Below the pieces are notes generated by a model, which did no database searches, had not been told where the DNA came from, and was given only the letters and a program-made list of their open reading frames with translations. Position numbers and translations under genes: made by a program. Positions 7,909-38,426 of a DNA stretch of 39,268 nt are shown one piece after another. How positions within the stretch are numbered: the first letter of the stretch is position 1; every line of letters begins with the position of its first letter. Origin of the DNA: Ruminococcus sp. (lineage in GTDB: Bacteria > Bacillota > Clostridia > Oscillospirales > Ruminococcaceae); contig JAFXVT010000001.1 in assembly GCA_017534835.1 (NCBI GenBank), positions 1 to 39,268 of the forward strand. Reading direction: 5' to 3'.

Positions 7909-10380
7909 TCAATAATATCTTGCTATGATATAGGATGTTACTGTGTAGCCCTTGCCGGTAGTGTAGTTATATGCGTCATTCTGATTGTTCGGCGTTTTCA
8001 GGTATTCTTCCGTTCTTCCGCTGAATCCGTTACAGGTGTCATAGTTGAGCCACTGTCCGTTCACAAGCACCTGATTCCAGTAATGTTCGCTGTAGTATGC
8101 ACCGGTACCGTAAACGATACGAGACTGATATCCTGCCTGCTTGAAGAGAATATCGGTTATTGCTGCGAAGTAGTAGCATACTACATATCGGTTGTCCATA
8201 GAGTAGTTAGCGAAGTAAGACCAGCCTGTATTCTGGATGTCATCAAGCGATCTTGTAGCCTCCATATACTTATAGACATTGTTGCTGCGAACGTAGTTGT
8301 AGATAGCCTGCGGCGAGCTGCCGATACTAGCGATTATGCTCTTGGCTCTTATCTGTGTATCAGAGAGCGGAGCGGCGCTTCCGTCACCGAGGAGGTTGAG
8401 GTCGTCTATAACTACGTTCTTAGCCATAGCACCTGTCTCGGGATAGAGGTAATACTTCTTTCCGCCGTCCTCGATCCAGCCGGTAGCCATAGTTCCGTCT
8501 GTGTTGAAGAAGTACCATATATCGTCTATCTTCTGCCAGCCGGTCATCATCTTGCCGTCTGTGCCGAAGAGGTATTTCTTGTCGCCTATCTTGATACGTC
8601 CGGTCATCATCTGACCGTTCTCTTCGCTGAAGTAGTAGGTCGCTCCGTCTATCTCAGTGAGACCGGAAGCCATCTGACCATCTTCACCGAGGTAATACTT
8701 CTTCTCGCCGTCAACGTACCACTTGGACTTAGCCATTTTGCCGTCCTCGCCGAAGAGGTACTTCTTGTCGTCTACGATGAGACGTCCAGTGACCATCTGA
8801 CCGGTCTCGGCGCTGAAGCAGTAGGTGTCTCCGTCTATCTCAGTGAGACCGGCAGCCATCTGACCGTCTGCCCCGAAGTAATACTTCTTTCCGCCGTCCT
8901 CGTACCATACGGACTTAGCCATTTTGCCGTCTGTACCGAAGAGGTACTTCTTATCGTCGACAACGAGACGTCCGGTAACATACTGACCGTCAGAGCCGAA
9001 GCAGTAGGTATCGTCTCCGATGTTTGTGAGACCTGTAGCCATAACGCCGTCAGGTCCGAAGTAGTAGGTCTTGCCCTCGCTCTCTATCCAGCTTGACTTA
9101 GCCATTTTGCCGTCGGGGGAGAAGTAGTATTTCTTTCCGTCGACCATTATGCGTCCTGTGCGCATTTCGTTTGTGGACTCGTCGAAGTAATATGTAGCGC
9201 CTTCATAGTCAATGAAGCCGTTGGTACGCTTGCCGTCGGGACCGAAGAAGTAGCTGCCGTCATTGAATGCAGCGATGCCGGTGACCATTTTGTAATCGTC
9301 ATCGAAGTAGTAGAAGTCGCCGCTTATCTTCTGTCTGCCCTTGATGGCAACTCCGTCAGCGCCGCTGTAGTAGGTGACGCCGTCGACAGTTGTGAGACCG
9401 ACTTCCGAAGCGAGCACGCCCTTCTCGTCAAAGACATAGTGCTTGCCGTCGACAGTACACAGCCCCTTCGCGAATGAAGAATCAGCATAGAAGTAATACT
9501 TCTTGCTCTGGACTGTCTGCCAGCCTGTGAGCATAACGCCGTCGGTGCCGAATACATGGGGCACATCGCCTATCATTACAGAGCCGGAAGCTCTGCCCGT
9601 CTCAGCGCTGATGAAATAGAACTTGTCACCTATTTTTGAGAGTCCCTCAGCCGCCTTGCCGGTTTCGGGATAGTAGTAATAGCTTTTTGTACCGGCTGTC
9701 TGCCAGCCTGTGAGCTCCTTGCCGTCCTTGTCGAAGAAGTAGGGGAAGCCGTCGATAGTGACCTCACCGGCAGCGAGCTTGCCTTCGTCGGTGACGTAGT
9801 AGAAATCGTCGCCGTCCTTGAAGAAGCCAGCCTGTGCTGTGAGAGCGCCGGTCGTGCCGAAGAGGTACTGCTTGCCGTCCTTGTCAGTGAATGAGCCGAC
9901 TACCTTTCCGTCATCGGAAATGTAGTATTTTCTTCCGCAGTAATCGAGCCAGCCGTAAACGGGCTTTCCGGTCTCGGGGTCGTAGTAGCGGCGCTTTCCG
10001 TCAACAGTTCTCCAGCCTGTTTTGAGGACGCCGTTTTTCGAGAAGAGGTAGGTCTCGTCTTCTATTTTCTGCTCGCCGGTCACGAATTTGCCGTCTTCGC
10101 CGTAATAGAATATCCTGCCCTTTTCGTCTGTCTTCCAACCGGCTTCGACCTTTGTTCCCGGGGAGGAAGCAGTAGTTGTTGCAGCAGTGGTAGTCGATGC
10201 AGCTGTCGAAGTAGTGGAAGCAGCCGTCGTCGTGGTCGTTGTTGTTGTTGTTGTTGCAGCGGCGGTCGTGGTGGTCGCTGCCGTATCCTTTTCTGCCGCG
10301 TGAGCAGCAGCCGGTGCAGCCGCAAGTATCGCAGCTGAAGCCGCTAATGCGCATATCAGCGTTTTGTTGTGTTTTTTCAT
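7909..10380 (-). CDS. Cell-wall-binding repeat protein with C-terminal transglutaminase-like domain
   Basis: An 823-residue secreted protein. It has a signal peptide (about 1-29), a Thr/Ala linker (about 35-75), roughly two dozen CW_binding_1-type repeats of about 20 residues (pattern GW..-DGK.YYF...G.M.TG) from about 80 to 670, and a C-terminal domain. That domain contains Cys735 (YVVCYYFAA), His766 (SEHYWNQV) and Asp781 (LNYDTCNG), the Cys-His-Asp layout of transglutaminase-like cysteine proteases/transferases. The repeats usually bind choline, teichoic acid or glucan. AGGAGAG precedes ATG 10380. It is the first gene of the operon and has its own consensus promoter. Confidence 0.85.
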   Translation of the reverse strand: MKKHNKTLICALAASAAILAAAPAAAHAAEKDTAATTTTAAATTTTTTTTTTAASTTSTAASTTTAATTTASSPGTKVEAGWKTDEKGRIFYYGEDGKFVTGEQKIEDETYLFSKNGVLKTGWRTVDGKRRYYDPETGKPVYGWLDYCGRKYYISDDGKVVGSFTDKDGKQYLFGTTGALTAQAGFFKDGDDFYYVTDEGKLAAGEVTIDGFPYFFDKDGKELTGWQTAGTKSYYYYPETGKAAEGLSKIGDKFYFISAETGRASGSVMIGDVPHVFGTDGVMLTGWQTVQSKKYYFYADSSFAKGLCTVDGKHYVFDEKGVLASEVGLTTVDGVTYYSGADGVAIKGRQKISGDFYYFDDDYKMVTGIAAFNDGSYFFGPDGKRTNGFIDYEGATYYFDESTNEMRTGRIMVDGKKYYFSPDGKMAKSSWIESEGKTYYFGPDGVMATGLTNIGDDTYCFGSDGQYVTGRLVVDDKKYLFGTDGKMAKSVWYEDGGKKYYFGADGQMAAGLTEIDGDTYCFSAETGQMVTGRLIVDDKKYLFGEDGKMAKSKWYVDGEKKYYLGEDGQMASGLTEIDGATYYFSEENGQMMTGRIKIGDKKYLFGTDGKMMTGWQKIDDIWYFFNTDGTMATGWIEDGGKKYYLYPETGAMAKNVVIDDLNLLGDGSAAPLSDTQIRAKSIIASIGSSPQAIYNYVRSNNVYKYMEATRSLDDIQNTGWSYFANYSMDNRYVVCYYFAAITDILFKQAGYQSRIVYGTGAYYSEHYWNQVLVNGQWLNYDTCNGFSGRTEEYLKTPNNQNDAYNYTTGKGYTVTSYIIARYY

Positions 10381-26332: not shown

Positions 26333-27286
26333 ATGCTGAAGGACAAGGGCTTTTACAGAGGAATAAATTTCGGAGGCTGGCTTTCACAGTGCAGCTACGA
26401 GAAGGAGCATCTCGACAGTTTCATCACCGAGCAGGATTTTGCTGCCGTTTCCGCATGGGGTATCGACCATGTTCGTATCCCGTTCGATTATAACATCATC
26501 GAGAAGGATCACGGCGAATTCATCGAGGAGGGCTTCGCATATCTCGATATGGCTGTGGAGATGTGCAAAAAATACGGACTGAATCTGCTCCTCGACCTTC
26601 ACAAGACTGCCGGTTTTTCGTTCGATTACTATGCCGAGAACGAGAGCGGATTCTTTGAAAGCGAGAAGTATCAGCAGCGCTTCATCAGGCTCTGGGAAGA
26701 GCTTGCGCAGAGATACGGAAAATACCACGGATTTGTAGCGTTCGAGCTGCTCAACGAGGTAACGGACAAGTCGTATATAGATACGTGGAACGACATCGTC
26801 CGCCGCTGTGTACCTGCTATCAGGAAGTATGCTCCGGATACTCTCATTTTCGTCGGAAGCTATCACAATAATGCTGCTGATACCGTTCAGTTCCTCGATG
26901 CGCCGTTCGATGACAGGATAGTGTATAATATGCACTGCTACGAGCCGCTGAAGTTCACTCATCAGGGCGCTTACTGGACAAATGACATCGTTCCCGAGGA
27001 GCGTATCCCATTCGAGGAGAGCGGCTGCGATGAGGCTTATTTCGAGAAGCTGTTCTCAACTGCCATTGCAAAGGCAGAGCAGTACGGTGCTGACCTTTAC
27101 TGCGGTGAATACGGCGTTATCGACGTCGTGCCTGCCGCTGACACACTGAAATGGTACCGCACGATAAACTCGGTATTTGAAAAGCACGGCATCGGCAGAA
27201 GTGCATGGGCGTACAAAAAAATGGACTTCGGCATCACAGACGAGCGCCTCGGCGACGTTCGTGATGAGCTGCTGAAGCTTCTGTAA
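26333..27286 (+). CDS. Glycoside hydrolase family 5 enzyme, intracellular
   Basis: A 317-residue GH5 (cellulase A-type) TIM barrel. GINFGGWLS starts the first strand, HVRIPFDY the third, LLLDLHK the fourth, FELLNEV holds the acid/base Glu142 and YCGEYGV the nucleophile Glu259; the late Trp in SAWAYK is also typical. There is no signal peptide, dockerin or carbohydrate-binding module, so it probably acts on imported beta-oligosaccharides. GGAGG precedes ATG. It is a single gene with a strong terminator. Confidence 0.92.
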   Translation: MLKDKGFYRGINFGGWLSQCSYEKEHLDSFITEQDFAAVSAWGIDHVRIPFDYNIIEKDHGEFIEEGFAYLDMAVEMCKKYGLNLLLDLHKTAGFSFDYYAENESGFFESEKYQQRFIRLWEELAQRYGKYHGFVAFELLNEVTDKSYIDTWNDIVRRCVPAIRKYAPDTLIFVGSYHNNAADTVQFLDAPFDDRIVYNMHCYEPLKFTHQGAYWTNDIVPEERIPFEESGCDEAYFEKLFSTAIAKAEQYGADLYCGEYGVIDVVPAADTLKWYRTINSVFEKHGIGRSAWAYKKMDFGITDERLGDVRDELLKLL

Positions 27287-35141: not shown

Positions 35142-35178
35142 TGCCGAAAACAGCAAACGATCTGACAGCATAAACAAC

Positions 35179-35218
35179 AAACCTCTGAAGCGGTCCTGCG
35201 GAACTGCCTCAGAGGTTT
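35179..35218. terminator. Terminator between lipoprotein and murD
   Basis: Stem AAACCTCTGA/TCAGAGGTTT with a 20-nt loop, T-rich on both sides; serves both convergent genes. Confidence 0.8.
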
Positions 35219-35226
35219 GTTTGTTA

Positions 35227-36564
35227 TCAGAGTGCTTTGACGAGCGACTTGAAAACGTCACCGCGCTCCTCAAAGTTTTTGAATATGCCATAGCTTGCTG
35301 CGGCAGGGGAGAGCACGCAGCTCTTTCCTTCGGGGGTTATCTCCGAAGCGAGCTTTACAGCCTCCGGGAGGTGCGATACGTAGTGTATGCGCGTCTCGTC
35401 TTTGAGCTCGGCGGACAGCAGCATATCGAATACACGCTTTCCCGACGCTTCCATACAGATAACGTTCACGTCAGATCTTGCGATGAATGCAACAAGTGGA
35501 GTGTAATCAATGCCGCGGTCCATTCCGCCGATAAGGACCGTACCCGGCTCGGGTACGCTTTTGAGAGCCTCGATAGCAGTCGCGCAGGCGGTCGAAATGG
35601 AATCGTCATACCAGCGGATACCCTTGAAGGTGCCGAAGTATTCGAGTCTGTGTGCGAGCGGGTCAAACGTGCAGAGTGCTGAAGTGAACTGGCTCTCACT
35701 GACGTAAAAGGTAGTGATGAAATGTGCTACAGCGATGTTGTAGTGATTGTGTATGCCGAGCAGTCTGATGTTGTCTGTCGGGATCGCGTACTCCTCACCG
35801 GGGCGTGTTATCCTGCCCTCGGAAACGAAGATGTCAGCCTTCGGGTCAGTGCTTGAAATGGTATACACGTAAGCCGGGCTGCTCTCGGGAGCAATCTCTG
35901 AATTTATCAGCAGAGTATCGTGCTTTTGCTGGTGGAGATAGATGTTTTTCTTCGCGTCGTAGTATTTTTCCATCGTGCCGTAGTGGTCGAGGTGCTCCTC
36001 GTAGAGATTGAGGAATATCGCAGTCGCAGGTGAAACTGTCATGTATTCGAGCTGGTGGCACGAAAGCTCGCAGACAACGATGCTGTCGGCTGTCAGCTTT
36101 TCTGCGATGTCGAATACGGGAATGCCGATGTTACCGGCGATATAAGCGTCGAGCCCGGCTTCCTTGAGGATGTGGTATATCATCGAGGTAACGGTGCTCT
36201 TGCCCTTTGTGCCGGTGATACCGATTACCTGCTCGCGGAAAACTTCAAAGAAGACCTGAGTCTCAGATGTGACAGTGCATTTCAGGTCTGAGGGAGACGT
36301 CTCAAGGACGATACCCGGACTCTTGAAAACGATGTCGAAGCGGTCGAGACATTCCTGATAGGCGTCGCCGCAGATGAGCTCGACATCATCGCTTACGCCG
36401 GCAGCTTCGCGGTCAACGTGGTTGAGGTCGGCTATCGCGATGCAAGATGGTGAGCAGTGCTTTTTCAGCACGGAATATGTTGATCTTCCTTCTCTGCCGA
36501 AGCCGAGAATACATACGCTTCTGCCCTCTGTGAGAGCCTTTATATGTTCCGGAAAGTTATTCAA
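35227..36564 (-). CDS. murD: UDP-MurNAc-L-Ala:glutamate ligase MurD (probably MurD2 type)
   Basis: A 445-residue Mur ligase. GFGREGRSTY starts the N-terminal domain, GITGTKGKSTV is the ATP loop, NIGIPV and HLDHYG lie in the central domain and LAHRLEYFG and DDSISTACA in the C-terminal domain. Standard MurD adds D-Glu to UDP-MurNAc-L-Ala. Because the partner gene is murL, this protein may instead add L-Glu, as MurD2 does in Xanthomonas. The start is TTG 36564 with GGAG 8 nt ahead; it overlaps the murL stop by 4 nt (TTGA), so the pair is translationally coupled. Length is normal for MurD. Confidence 0.88.
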   Translation of the reverse strand: MNNFPEHIKALTEGRSVCILGFGREGRSTYSVLKKHCSPSCIAIADLNHVDREAAGVSDDVELICGDAYQECLDRFDIVFKSPGIVLETSPSDLKCTVTSETQVFFEVFREQVIGITGTKGKSTVTSMIYHILKEAGLDAYIAGNIGIPVFDIAEKLTADSIVVCELSCHQLEYMTVSPATAIFLNLYEEHLDHYGTMEKYYDAKKNIYLHQQKHDTLLINSEIAPESSPAYVYTISSTDPKADIFVSEGRITRPGEEYAIPTDNIRLLGIHNHYNIAVAHFITTFYVSESQFTSALCTFDPLAHRLEYFGTFKGIRWYDDSISTACATAIEALKSVPEPGTVLIGGMDRGIDYTPLVAFIARSDVNVICMEASGKRVFDMLLSAELKDETRIHYVSHLPEAVKLASEITPEGKSCVLSPAAASYGIFKNFEERGDVFKSLVKAL

Positions 36565-37943
36565 AGAAGTCGCTCCATTTCATTTTTCAGTATTTCCCTG
36601 AACCGGGGTGGAAGGAGGTTTGCCTCGCTGAATCTGCCGCAGTAATCAGCATTTACAGCGTCTATAGCGGATGGTTCATAGAGACCTGCGTCCTTGTATT
36701 TTTTCATAAGAAGCGGAAGCTCCTCGCCGTTGTTCTCGGCTCTGCGTATAGCGAGCGATACAGCGAGATTTACCTCGTCGATGCTTCCTACGCATTCAAA
36801 CGGCTTGTGCTCGGACTGTCCGCAGAGCTCGAAGAAATAGTCCGTCATACTTTCTTCGCCGAGGAGATCCTTGCCGAATATCTCCGTCAGCTCGGCGCGG
36901 CTGAGAAAAGGGGAGAGTATCAGGCATACGAACAGGCACTTCGGACACTCACCGCACCATATATCGGGCGATACCTTGCTTCCGAGGTTGCAGCTGCGGA
37001 ATACCGGAAGATACTTCCTGTGGCTGACGAACATCTTCGCTATCTGGAATTCAGACAGCGGACGAAGGAAGCTGAAATAGTATATGCCGGTCTTCAGGTA
37101 TTTTTCCTCATAGCTGTGGAAATCCTGTTCAAATTCAAAGCTTTTTGAATACTGGTGGTTCACGTTCTGACCTGCAACTGTGCTCTCGTTCGCACTGTCC
37201 TCGTTGGAAAGAACGATATATTTCAATCTGTTCAGATATGCTGTTATCTCCGCCGAGAACGCGACTACCGATGAAAACGGTGTGTGTCCGTTCAGATAGC
37301 CCTTGTTGTTGAGGTCAACGAGCGAACGGTCGAAACGGCGCTTTGCTGTGATAAGTGTGCTCTCAGGCAGACCTGCCGCGAGCACAGTACCCGTTATCGA
37401 GCAGCGCTTGTTTATTGCGTAGCAGCGGCATTCCATACCTGCTTTAGTGAGCGTTTCAAGTGTGAGGGCGGAGTCTTTGCCGCCGCCAATCGTGACAAGG
37501 CAGCCCGTCAGCGGTGTACGCACGGCTGCTGCCGTAAATGTACCGTCCCCGACGCACTGTATATCCATAAATGAATCAATGTCTGTATCTATCCCGTTTA
37601 CGTAGAAGAATTCACCGAGTCCGAGAAAGTAAAGCTTCTTCCACCAGCGTATCTGCTCGTCATCAAGAGAGCCGCACTCTACGCGTATTACAGGTGAGCA
37701 TACAGCCTTCCAGTAGCTTATCGCCTCTGCCATACCGAGTGAGAATGCGAGCCTTTCAAATGTTCCGTCACCTTTTACAGAGTATCCCTCGGGACGCGGA
37801 AAGCTCCAGCCGGGGTGGAATTCTGCAAGCCCGGGGATCGCAAATATATAGTCTATCTCAACTGTCTCGTCGGTTTCTGATACAGTGTACGATCTGTACT
37901 CAAAAACGGGTGCTTCTTTCCTGAATCTGTCAAACCTTTCCAT
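36561..37943 (-). CDS. murL: UDP-MurNAc-L-alanyl-L-glutamate epimerase MurL
   Basis: A 460-residue protein that matches MurL throughout: LYFLGLGEFFYVNG, the PP-loop-like GGGKDSALTLE (153-158 core), NGHTPFSS, VLSNEDSANE, VNHQYSKSFEFEQDF, FLRPLSEFQIA, the cysteine cluster WCGECPKC (330-336) and HKPFECVG. MurL, known from Xanthomonas oryzae, converts the terminal L-Glu of UDP-MurNAc-L-Ala-L-Glu to D-Glu using ATP and Mg, replacing glutamate racemase. ATG 37943 with GGAGG 5 nt upstream is preferred. It overlaps the regulator gene before it by 14 nt and the murD gene after it by 4 nt. Confidence 0.92.
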   Translation of the reverse strand: MERFDRFRKEAPVFEYRSYTVSETDETVEIDYIFAIPGLAEFHPGWSFPRPEGYSVKGDGTFERLAFSLGMAEAISYWKAVCSPVIRVECGSLDDEQIRWWKKLYFLGLGEFFYVNGIDTDIDSFMDIQCVGDGTFTAAAVRTPLTGCLVTIGGGKDSALTLETLTKAGMECRCYAINKRCSITGTVLAAGLPESTLITAKRRFDRSLVDLNNKGYLNGHTPFSSVVAFSAEITAYLNRLKYIVLSNEDSANESTVAGQNVNHQYSKSFEFEQDFHSYEEKYLKTGIYYFSFLRPLSEFQIAKMFVSHRKYLPVFRSCNLGSKVSPDIWCGECPKCLFVCLILSPFLSRAELTEIFGKDLLGEESMTDYFFELCGQSEHKPFECVGSIDEVNLAVSLAIRRAENNGEELPLLMKKYKDAGLYEPSAIDAVNADYCGRFSEANLLPPRFREILKNEMERLL

Positions 37944-38319
37944 TCTGTCCTCCGACAAGCTTCAGATAGTGCGCCTTGAGCAGAGTATAGGTCTCGTCAG
38001 AGAGGTCGTGCTCAACTTTGCAAGCGTCCTCAAGAGCCTGATCCTTTTTTACTCCGAGCAGCATAAAGAACTCCGAAAGAGTGCTGTGGCGGTCGTATAT
38101 CCTCTCGGCTACAGACCTGCCTGCATCCGTGAGGGTGATGTGGTTGTTACCGTCGACAGATACGAGTCCCTCTTCCTTCATCTTTTTGAGGATAATAGAT
38201 ACCGTCGGACGAGAGTAACCGAGGTAGGAGCAGATGTCTATAGCGTGGACATCCGGCTGTGCCTTTGACAGTATAAGTATTGTTTCAAGGTAGTTTTCAA
38301 CCGCTTCTGTTATTGCCAT
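37930..38319 (-). CDS. DtxR/MntR family metal-dependent regulator
   Basis: A 129-residue regulator with a winged helix (TEAVENYLETILILSKAQ, HAIDICSYLGYSRPTVSIIL) and the metal-binding dimerisation domain (AERIYDRHSTLSEFF, ACKVEHDLSDET). It has no SH3-like third domain, as in MntR and short IdeR relatives. Metal ligands Glu/His in the RHSTLSEF and VEHDLS segments are present. GGGAG precedes ATG 38319. Its gene overlaps murL by 14 nt and is first in the operon, so metal level and wall synthesis may be linked, or the arrangement may be accidental. Confidence 0.9.
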   Translation of the reverse strand: MAITEAVENYLETILILSKAQPDVHAIDICSYLGYSRPTVSIILKKMKEEGLVSVDGNNHITLTDAGRSVAERIYDRHSTLSEFFMLLGVKKDQALEDACKVEHDLSDETYTLLKAHYLKLVGGQNGKV

Positions 38320-38356
38320 TGTTATATCTCCCTTCGGGGCATAATAATTGATTATA

Positions 38357-38385
38357 ATTATACCATATATTTTTGTAAATAGCAA
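38357..38385 (-). promoter_or_regulatory. Promoter of the dtxR-murL-murD operon
   Basis: Minus strand TTGCTA (38380-38385), 17-nt spacer, TATAAT (38357-38362). An AT-rich inverted repeat ATAATT-N6-AATTAT overlaps the region just downstream and could be an operator. Confidence 0.7.
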
Positions 38386-38426
38386 GTGGCACAGCGAAAT
38401 AATTCTCATATGCCGCGAAACACCGC

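Follow-up and report, generated by a model that had tools for sequence, protein, structure and literature searches.

A predicted MurL-MurD2 route to peptidoglycan D-glutamate in a Ruminococcus clade, encoded beside a DtxR-type regulator gene

The MurD2-MurL pair of Xanthomonas oryzae (XOO_1320/XOO_1319) and its relatives provides the closest described counterpart to the murL-murD locus analyzed here, which lies in a 39,268-nucleotide stretch of Ruminococcus sp. DNA (contig JAFXVT010000001.1; hereafter the window, meaning that whole stretch). As set out in the available portions of PMC8788868 and PMC5808125, MurL is a one-way epimerase without known domains that converts adenosine triphosphate (ATP) to the monophosphate (AMP), and the MurL-MurD2 system occurs in some Gamma- and Alphaproteobacteria and in rare actinobacteria; orthologues of low similarity also occur in cyanobacteria, in an amoeba and in a fungus that infects plants. 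The distribution lists in those portions do not name Bacillota; here and below our literature searches covered open PubMed Central (PMC) texts, with subscription papers and preprints outside them. In X. oryzae MurD2, residues E197 and R358 occupy the positions of D182 and K348 of Escherichia coli MurD, and reverting both yields a D-glutamate (D-Glu) ligase, as the relevant portion of PMC8788868 describes. Roseburia intestinalis, according to a part of PMC7478625, appears to lack murI, and a MurL-MurD2 system in Bacillota offers a candidate answer to a puzzle of this type.

The window carries the genes dtxR-murL-murD in that order, all on the minus strand and spanning 38319-35227, and we propose, with a probability of roughly 0.88, that this unit supplies the second stem-peptide residue through the rare MurL-MurD2 route. 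The product of murD2 (35227..36564, minus strand; 445 residues from a TTG start), a predicted UDP-N-acetylmuramoyl (UDP-MurNAc)-L-Ala:L-glutamate ligase, would attach L-Glu to UDP-MurNAc-L-Ala, and MurL (36561..37943, minus strand; 460 residues from the ATG at 37943) would flip the attached L-Glu to D-Glu in place, with ATP going to AMP and with activation of a carboxylate as proposed in the Xanthomonas papers, such that free D-Glu and glutamate racemase would not be required. The route seems to be used because the usual D-Glu-making enzyme is not matched in the genome. Both reactions and the proposed activation are drawn from the Xanthomonas work; gene content and order, the missing MurI match, the MurD residues and their conservation are observed here, and from them we infer that the Ruminococcus pair carries out both steps. 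The known MurD2-MurL pathway would thus be the apparent sole D-Glu route of this Ruminococcus clade, recurrent in other Bacillota.

The source genome (2.56 Mb in 67 contigs, 99.86% complete, 4.89% contamination) contains no match to PF01177, the Asp/Glu-racemase family. Its one class-IV aminotransferase passes the NCBIfam cut-off for the branched-chain type II (IlvE-type) family and scores 52 bits vs. 320 on the D-amino-acid transaminase model, and on these grounds a MurI or a D-amino-acid transaminase elsewhere in the genome was rejected. A check for murI/racE, dat and a second murD therefore came out in line with the pathway, with a single MurD over its cut-off and four weaker partial matches. 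Nothing linking glutamate racemase, R. flavefaciens and peptidoglycan was retrieved from the open literature. Across an order-wide survey of 197 genomes, MurL is found in 18 and PF01177 in 166, the latter being absent from 15 of the 18 MurL carriers vs. 16 of the 179 others (Fisher p 1.6e-11, to be read as a guide since the genomes share kinship and the counts are not independent). The three MurL-positive order genomes with PF01177 matches (G037, G153 and G175) were rejected as MurI carriers, their proteins being of the asp_race/cysteate-racemase type over the NCBIfam cut-off; in the window's own family, 14 genomes divide into six with MurL only and eight with PF01177 only. Relatives were also gathered by a contig profile scan with an alignment of the 18 order MurLs, window included, the best 80 of at least 576 stretches being referred to as the named loci. 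Within these best 80, the nearest MurL relatives (69-84%) are Ruminococcus flavefaciens and other Ruminococcus, whose record titles point to rumen, gut and faecal samples, and the window belongs to the R. flavefaciens clade. Fifty genomes among the 80 loci were searched for PF01177: 32 have none, and the other 18 hold 32 matches, 26 of which were classified with NCBIfam (25 scanned, one by identity; the remainder lie in G229, with three, and in G235, G238 and G215). Apart from a glutamate racemase in G202 and a MurI-like protein in G224, those classified are of the asp_race type, of other families or without a family call.

The MurD itself matches NCBIfam TIGR01087 at 1.5e-96 and 324 bits, above the cut-off of 212, and carries the residue pair of MurD2, Glu190 aligning with E. 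coli D182 and Arg350 with K348. Besides the window, 88 MurL-linked MurDs could be read at these positions (15 of 17 order loci and 73 of 80 named loci, 87 distinct since L011 and L118 are one gene; L120, at a contig end, has no readable residues), and they were compared with 32 canonical MurDs, comprising the 30 best-scoring of the order from genomes without a MurL match, the second copy of G129 and one from the MurL carrier G119. The K348 position is Arg in 88 of 88 and Lys in 32 of 32, respectively, and position 416 is Tyr in all 88 vs. Phe in all 32. At the D182 position the MurL-linked proteins have Glu (70) or Asp (18), and the canonical ones Asn (31) or Asp (1). K319 was rejected as a MurD2 marker, the canonical MurDs having Ile there in 30 of 32 cases too. 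In a MurD tree of 139 rows, some genes appearing twice and L176 and L177 being left out, a branch with support of 0.987 separates all 35 canonical rows from the rest, and Xanthomonas sacchari MurD2 falls on the MurL side; the trait that marks MurD2 may go back to a common ancestor or have evolved on two occasions. Four genomes in which murL stands apart (G230, G231, G241 and G247) have a separate MurD that still carries Glu and Arg.

The two genes are also physically coupled. Among the 80 named loci, 74 have a murD downstream of murL and in the same orientation, no more than 250 nucleotides away except at L101, where murL is split in two and which was excluded from the gap count, and the pair is present in 17 of the 18 order loci, window included, with the remaining one cut by a contig end. 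Six named loci have no downstream murD: L129 stops 129 nucleotides past murL, and at L102, L103, L106, L108 and L121 no MurD was found after murL, other frames being present there. In the window the genes share 4 nucleotides, as the earlier note had described; the shared letters are TTGA, with the murD TTG start sitting within the murL stop, and a start codon allowing the same overlap occurs in 24 of 73 pairs examined. At three of the 18 order loci the two proteins are fused into one open frame of 851-900 residues: L014 160-2748 (862), L022 1474-4176 (900) and L024 178-2733 (851).

The source genome has one MurL match, the window protein, which aligns with NCBIfam NF041275 (MurL) over 341 positions at 2e-72 and 244 bits. 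As this is under the model's cut-off of 700, the protein falls outside that narrow equivalog, which is named for Xanthomonadales, and is best filed as a MurL homologue likely working like MurL, on the strength of homology and context. A 48-sequence profile (window plus 47 of the 80 named MurLs) aligns with X. sacchari MurL, from a plasmid record, at a hhalign probability of 100% and E 1.1e-60 over 391 columns with 33% identity, vs. E 0.74 for a control protein, and tblastn gives 36% over query residues 74-390. With the gene order recurring in 19 clade loci, the long and specific murL match reported earlier is real beyond chance. Thirty-nine residues are invariant in 36 MurLs chosen from Bacillota, Xanthomonas and Pseudonocardia, among them G154, G155, D157 and S158 of a PP-loop and the cysteines 318, 330, 333, 336 and 384.

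How far the third gene belongs to this system is a separate matter. The dtxR gene (37930..38319, minus strand; 129 residues from the ATG at 38319) encodes a DtxR/MntR-type metalloregulator with Fe_dep_repress (PF01325) and Fe_dep_repr_C (PF02742) over cut-off, the Pfam scan having used the longer frame that opens at the ATG at 38409. Its alignments reach 4e-13 with E. coli MntR and 3e-10 with IdeR, an iron-dependent regulator. All 19 R. flavefaciens-clade loci with upstream DNA have the gene in front of murL; L101, being cut, is not among them. Six residues, namely Asn8, Glu11, His, Cys, Glu and His, are invariant in the 19 aligned proteins, which indicates that DtxR is under constraint; the last five are ligand-like by the MntR/DtxR assignment. 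Both domains and the metal ligands place it in the DtxR/MntR family, with one ligand position differing (Asn). At L062 (2190-2554) the dtxR frame is broken at codon 42, with murL and murD matched at full length. Co-transcription of dtxR, murL and murD as one unit is likely, since the order is kept in all 19 clade loci and a promoter-like site, TTG-(15 to 19)-TGnTATAAT, precedes dtxR in 16 of 19 upstream regions, window included. It is nevertheless an even wager that dtxR is a chance or historical neighbor that does not regulate murL-murD, a possibility compatible with the proposed pathway: tblastn finds no dtxR at any of the 60 named loci that lie outside the clade, 57 of which extend for 1 kb or more upstream, and none turns up at E <1 among the remaining 17 loci of the order. 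The dtxR-murL junction ranges from a 14-nucleotide overlap to a 68-nucleotide gap (L062 set aside), and no DtxR operator was recognized, an operator palindrome having been rejected where only the 7-nucleotide TATAATT/AATTATA at the -10 was present; against mere chance stand the kept order and the shared promoter-like site. An operon with a DtxR-type regulator, as first suggested, thus holds as a linkage within the clade and not outside it, and the 14-nucleotide dtxR/murL overlap, present in the window, was rejected as a conserved trait. Metal control of wall synthesis via DtxR is put forward as a hypothesis.

Several observations weigh against the MurL-MurD2 reading. A MurI over the TIGR00067 cut-off is encoded in one of 17 clade genomes tested (G202, L161 333-1163), which is also murL-positive; this is either contamination or a second route, and the G202 contigs, at 50-52% guanine plus cytosine (GC), are not separable by GC. 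The MurI-like protein of G224 (L167 272-1096) reaches 108 bits vs. a cut-off of 147. In the MurD comparison, the 18 proteins with Asp lack the Glu of the first determinant, a D-Glu-using streptococcal MurD also carries the Arg (PMC8788868, in the part available), and the 30 main canonical sequences are the best-scoring of the order and not a random draw. The window MurL falls short of the NF041275 cut-off, and its direct comparison with QueC, taken up below, is weak. G232 has a MurL and no MurD match. Finally, a MurL-linked MurD coexists with a canonical MurD in G219 (Mordavella massiliensis An582), G222 (Eubacterium sp. ER2) and G229 (Clostridiales bacterium 1_7_47_FAA), and since these and G248 carry a canonical MurD, the pair is not the only route in every genome; where an isolate has both kinds of MurD, it may be a second one.

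Three side observations touch on these proteins. The catalytic-cysteine stretches of the G224 protein look altered by eye, perhaps marking a decaying or reused racemase. The canonical MurDs L176, L177 and L178 (genomes of L090, L087 and L100) lie, again by eye, between mraY- and ftsW-like frames. G119 (L146, L147) combines a MurL-linked with a canonical-type MurD and has no PF01177 match.

In a rival reading, the window MurD is an ordinary D-Glu ligase whose substrate comes from uptake or from a transaminase or racemase that escaped recognition, and MurL serves some different purpose. The MurD passes the canonical TIGR01087 cut-off, and its identity to X. sacchari MurD2 (26.9%) is about that to E. 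coli MurD (27.6%), so that the case for MurD2 function is built on its residues and its partner; the genome does have one class-IV aminotransferase; and G219 and G222 pair a canonical MurD with a sole PF01177 protein of the asp_race/cysteate-racemase type over cut-off, so D-Glu may come from elsewhere there. That aminotransferase is nonetheless IlvE-type and far from the D-amino-acid transaminase score, the Arg marker and the split of the MurD tree follow MurL, the two proteins are fused in some loci, and PF01177 absence tracks MurL, all of which leaves this alternative highly improbable. Least probable of all is the idea that the D-Glu residues formed by the pair go into some specialized polymer or peptide and not into bulk peptidoglycan, for although the genomes with two MurDs (G219, G222, G229 and G248) could use one per purpose, the source genome has a single MurD over cut-off and no PF01177 match, and the adjacent genes, judged with ten of the window's large frames scanned, form no biosynthetic cluster. 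Replacement of glutamate racemase by MurL-MurD2 in a Firmicute, the central proposal of the earlier note, is therefore supported at the level of sequence by the missing PF01177, the single MurD, its Glu/Arg pair, the near mutual exclusion across the order and the natural fusions.

If the MurL-MurD2 pathway operates as proposed, the chemistry of MurL merits attention. A GGGKDS PP-loop motif is invariant or nearly so in the 36 MurLs, as in the PP-loop superfamily. Searched against the PDB with E up to 10, the 36-sequence profile returns 12 sequences: ten named PP-loop enzymes, the uncharacterized MJ0690 and one unrelated protein. TtuA is best at 1.7e-4, the two TtuA matches are below 0.001 and the eight other PP-loop ones range from 0.12 to 1.7; TtuA, MnmA, GuaA and QueC are what we take to be members of the PP-loop class. 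The 48-sequence profile retrieves only TtuA (8e-4) and one unrelated chain. Pfam QueC is matched weakly in four of 48 MurLs (best 0.0095) and DUF6395 in 46. Since no QueC homologue was found in the order at E 1e-20 among 79 genomes, E. coli QueC and seven phage QueCs served for comparison: hhalign gives a probability of 8% with the E. coli protein and 7% with the 8-sequence QueC profile (E 0.004-0.005), the latter aligning at the PP-loop only, vs. 0.06% for an unrelated control. Taken together, a PP-loop fold for MurL has good odds, and the enzyme is probably an N-type ATP pyrophosphatase that may be related to QueC; a Cys4 metal site is evenly poised between presence and absence. The PP-loop assignment fits the reported ATP-to-AMP reaction, and QueC too uses ATP for carboxylate activation. 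The PDB yielded no MurL structure, and the open literature nothing pairing MurL with QueC. A PP-loop, QueC-like reading supplies a mechanism and mutable residues for an enzyme that reviews call devoid of known domains. A more ambitious extension, in which peptidoglycan entry in R. flavefaciens-type bacteria is metal-gated by a co-transcribed DtxR controlling the only MurD and MurL, and MurL is a metal-bearing QueC-like PP-loop enzyme epimerizing via an adenylated peptide carboxylate, strikes us as unlikely; if true, metal supply would set the rate of wall-precursor synthesis by both transcription and enzyme loading.

Judged by record title, Lachnospiraceae, Oscillospiraceae and Erysipelotrichaceae are also represented among the best 80 of at least 576 matches; a wide phylum-level spread was rejected when 398 evenly drawn genomes gave one strong match, the window's own genome, and four further weak, partial ones (22-33 bits). 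MurL homologues annotated as hypothetical lie on Pseudonocardia plasmids (L149 3854-5254, L202 2354-3748 and L203 2372-3781), with no adjoining annotated MurD in the stretches shown. A murL-murD pair is also found in a Bacteriophage sp. record, unverified and derived from human faeces (L204 3890-6518, MT836755.1), which may be bacterial DNA, and another, 51% like the Ruminococcus pair, in an Alistipes sp. record (L091) that is perhaps a mis-binned contig.

The signals around the locus are compatible with a single transcript. The promoter-like site upstream of dtxR (38357..38385, minus strand) reads TTGCTA-17-TATAAT with TG ahead of the -10, matching the consensus at 10 of 12 positions, and position 38385, where the span given in the earlier note ends, is the first base of its -35-like hexamer, with no gene start there; the promoter scan returned 10 sites vs. 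5.4 ± 2.3 in shuffled sequence. GGAGG lies immediately 5' of the murL ATG, and an alternative TTG start at 37958 would add five residues. Directly 3' of murD is a terminator-like hairpin (35169..35223, minus strand) whose predicted outer pairs extend into the murD end: a 91-nucleotide stretch folds at -39.3 kcal/mol (z -6.0, with none of 200 shuffles equally low), and the hairpin is missing from the list of a simple terminator scan. The gene preceding dtxR is of thioesterase type, and past murD are a plus-strand frame judged by eye to be lipoprotein-like and a TetR-type regulator. Elsewhere in the window, a GH5 cellulase-family gene (26333-27286, plus strand) fits a plant-fibre-degrading Ruminococcus, and 7909-10380 on the minus strand encodes a protein in which nine cell-wall repeats of the choline-binding type accompany a transglutaminase-like domain.

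Set beside known systems, each protein of the locus combines shared and private traits. The clade regulator has in common with MntR and DtxR both domains and the ligand-like residues, whereas its C-terminus is short (125-130 residues in all) and its Asn8 presumably stands where MntR has D8 and DtxR M10. MurL shares the GG-K-DS PP-loop with QueC, TtuA, MnmA and GuaA, though its profile matches to them are short and weak; the four C-terminal cysteines of E. coli QueC align with C318, C330, C333 and C336 of MurL in a low-probability alignment, but QueC has 231 residues vs. 460 in MurL, which also differs by a separate N-terminal part and by numerous invariant residues peculiar to it. Compared with the canonical MurI-MurD route, the MurD is of the same broad family, yet the genome lacks PF01177 and the protein has Arg and Tyr where the 32 canonical order MurDs have Lys and Phe. 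The Xanthomonas system is the closest match, with the same two adjacent genes, no MurI match and the MurD Glu/Arg determinants; in X. sacchari murL likewise precedes murD, by a 20-nucleotide overlap vs. 4 in the window, and MurL residues are shared. It differs in that the host here belongs to Bacillota, dtxR stands in front, three order relatives have fusions and MurL scores under the NCBIfam cut-off, and in that the window MurD has Ala at 414 and Tyr at 416 vs. Pro433 and Phe435 of X. oryzae MurD2, residues that do not define MurD2 function given that their mutation left stereospecificity unchanged (PMC8788868, in the portion available).

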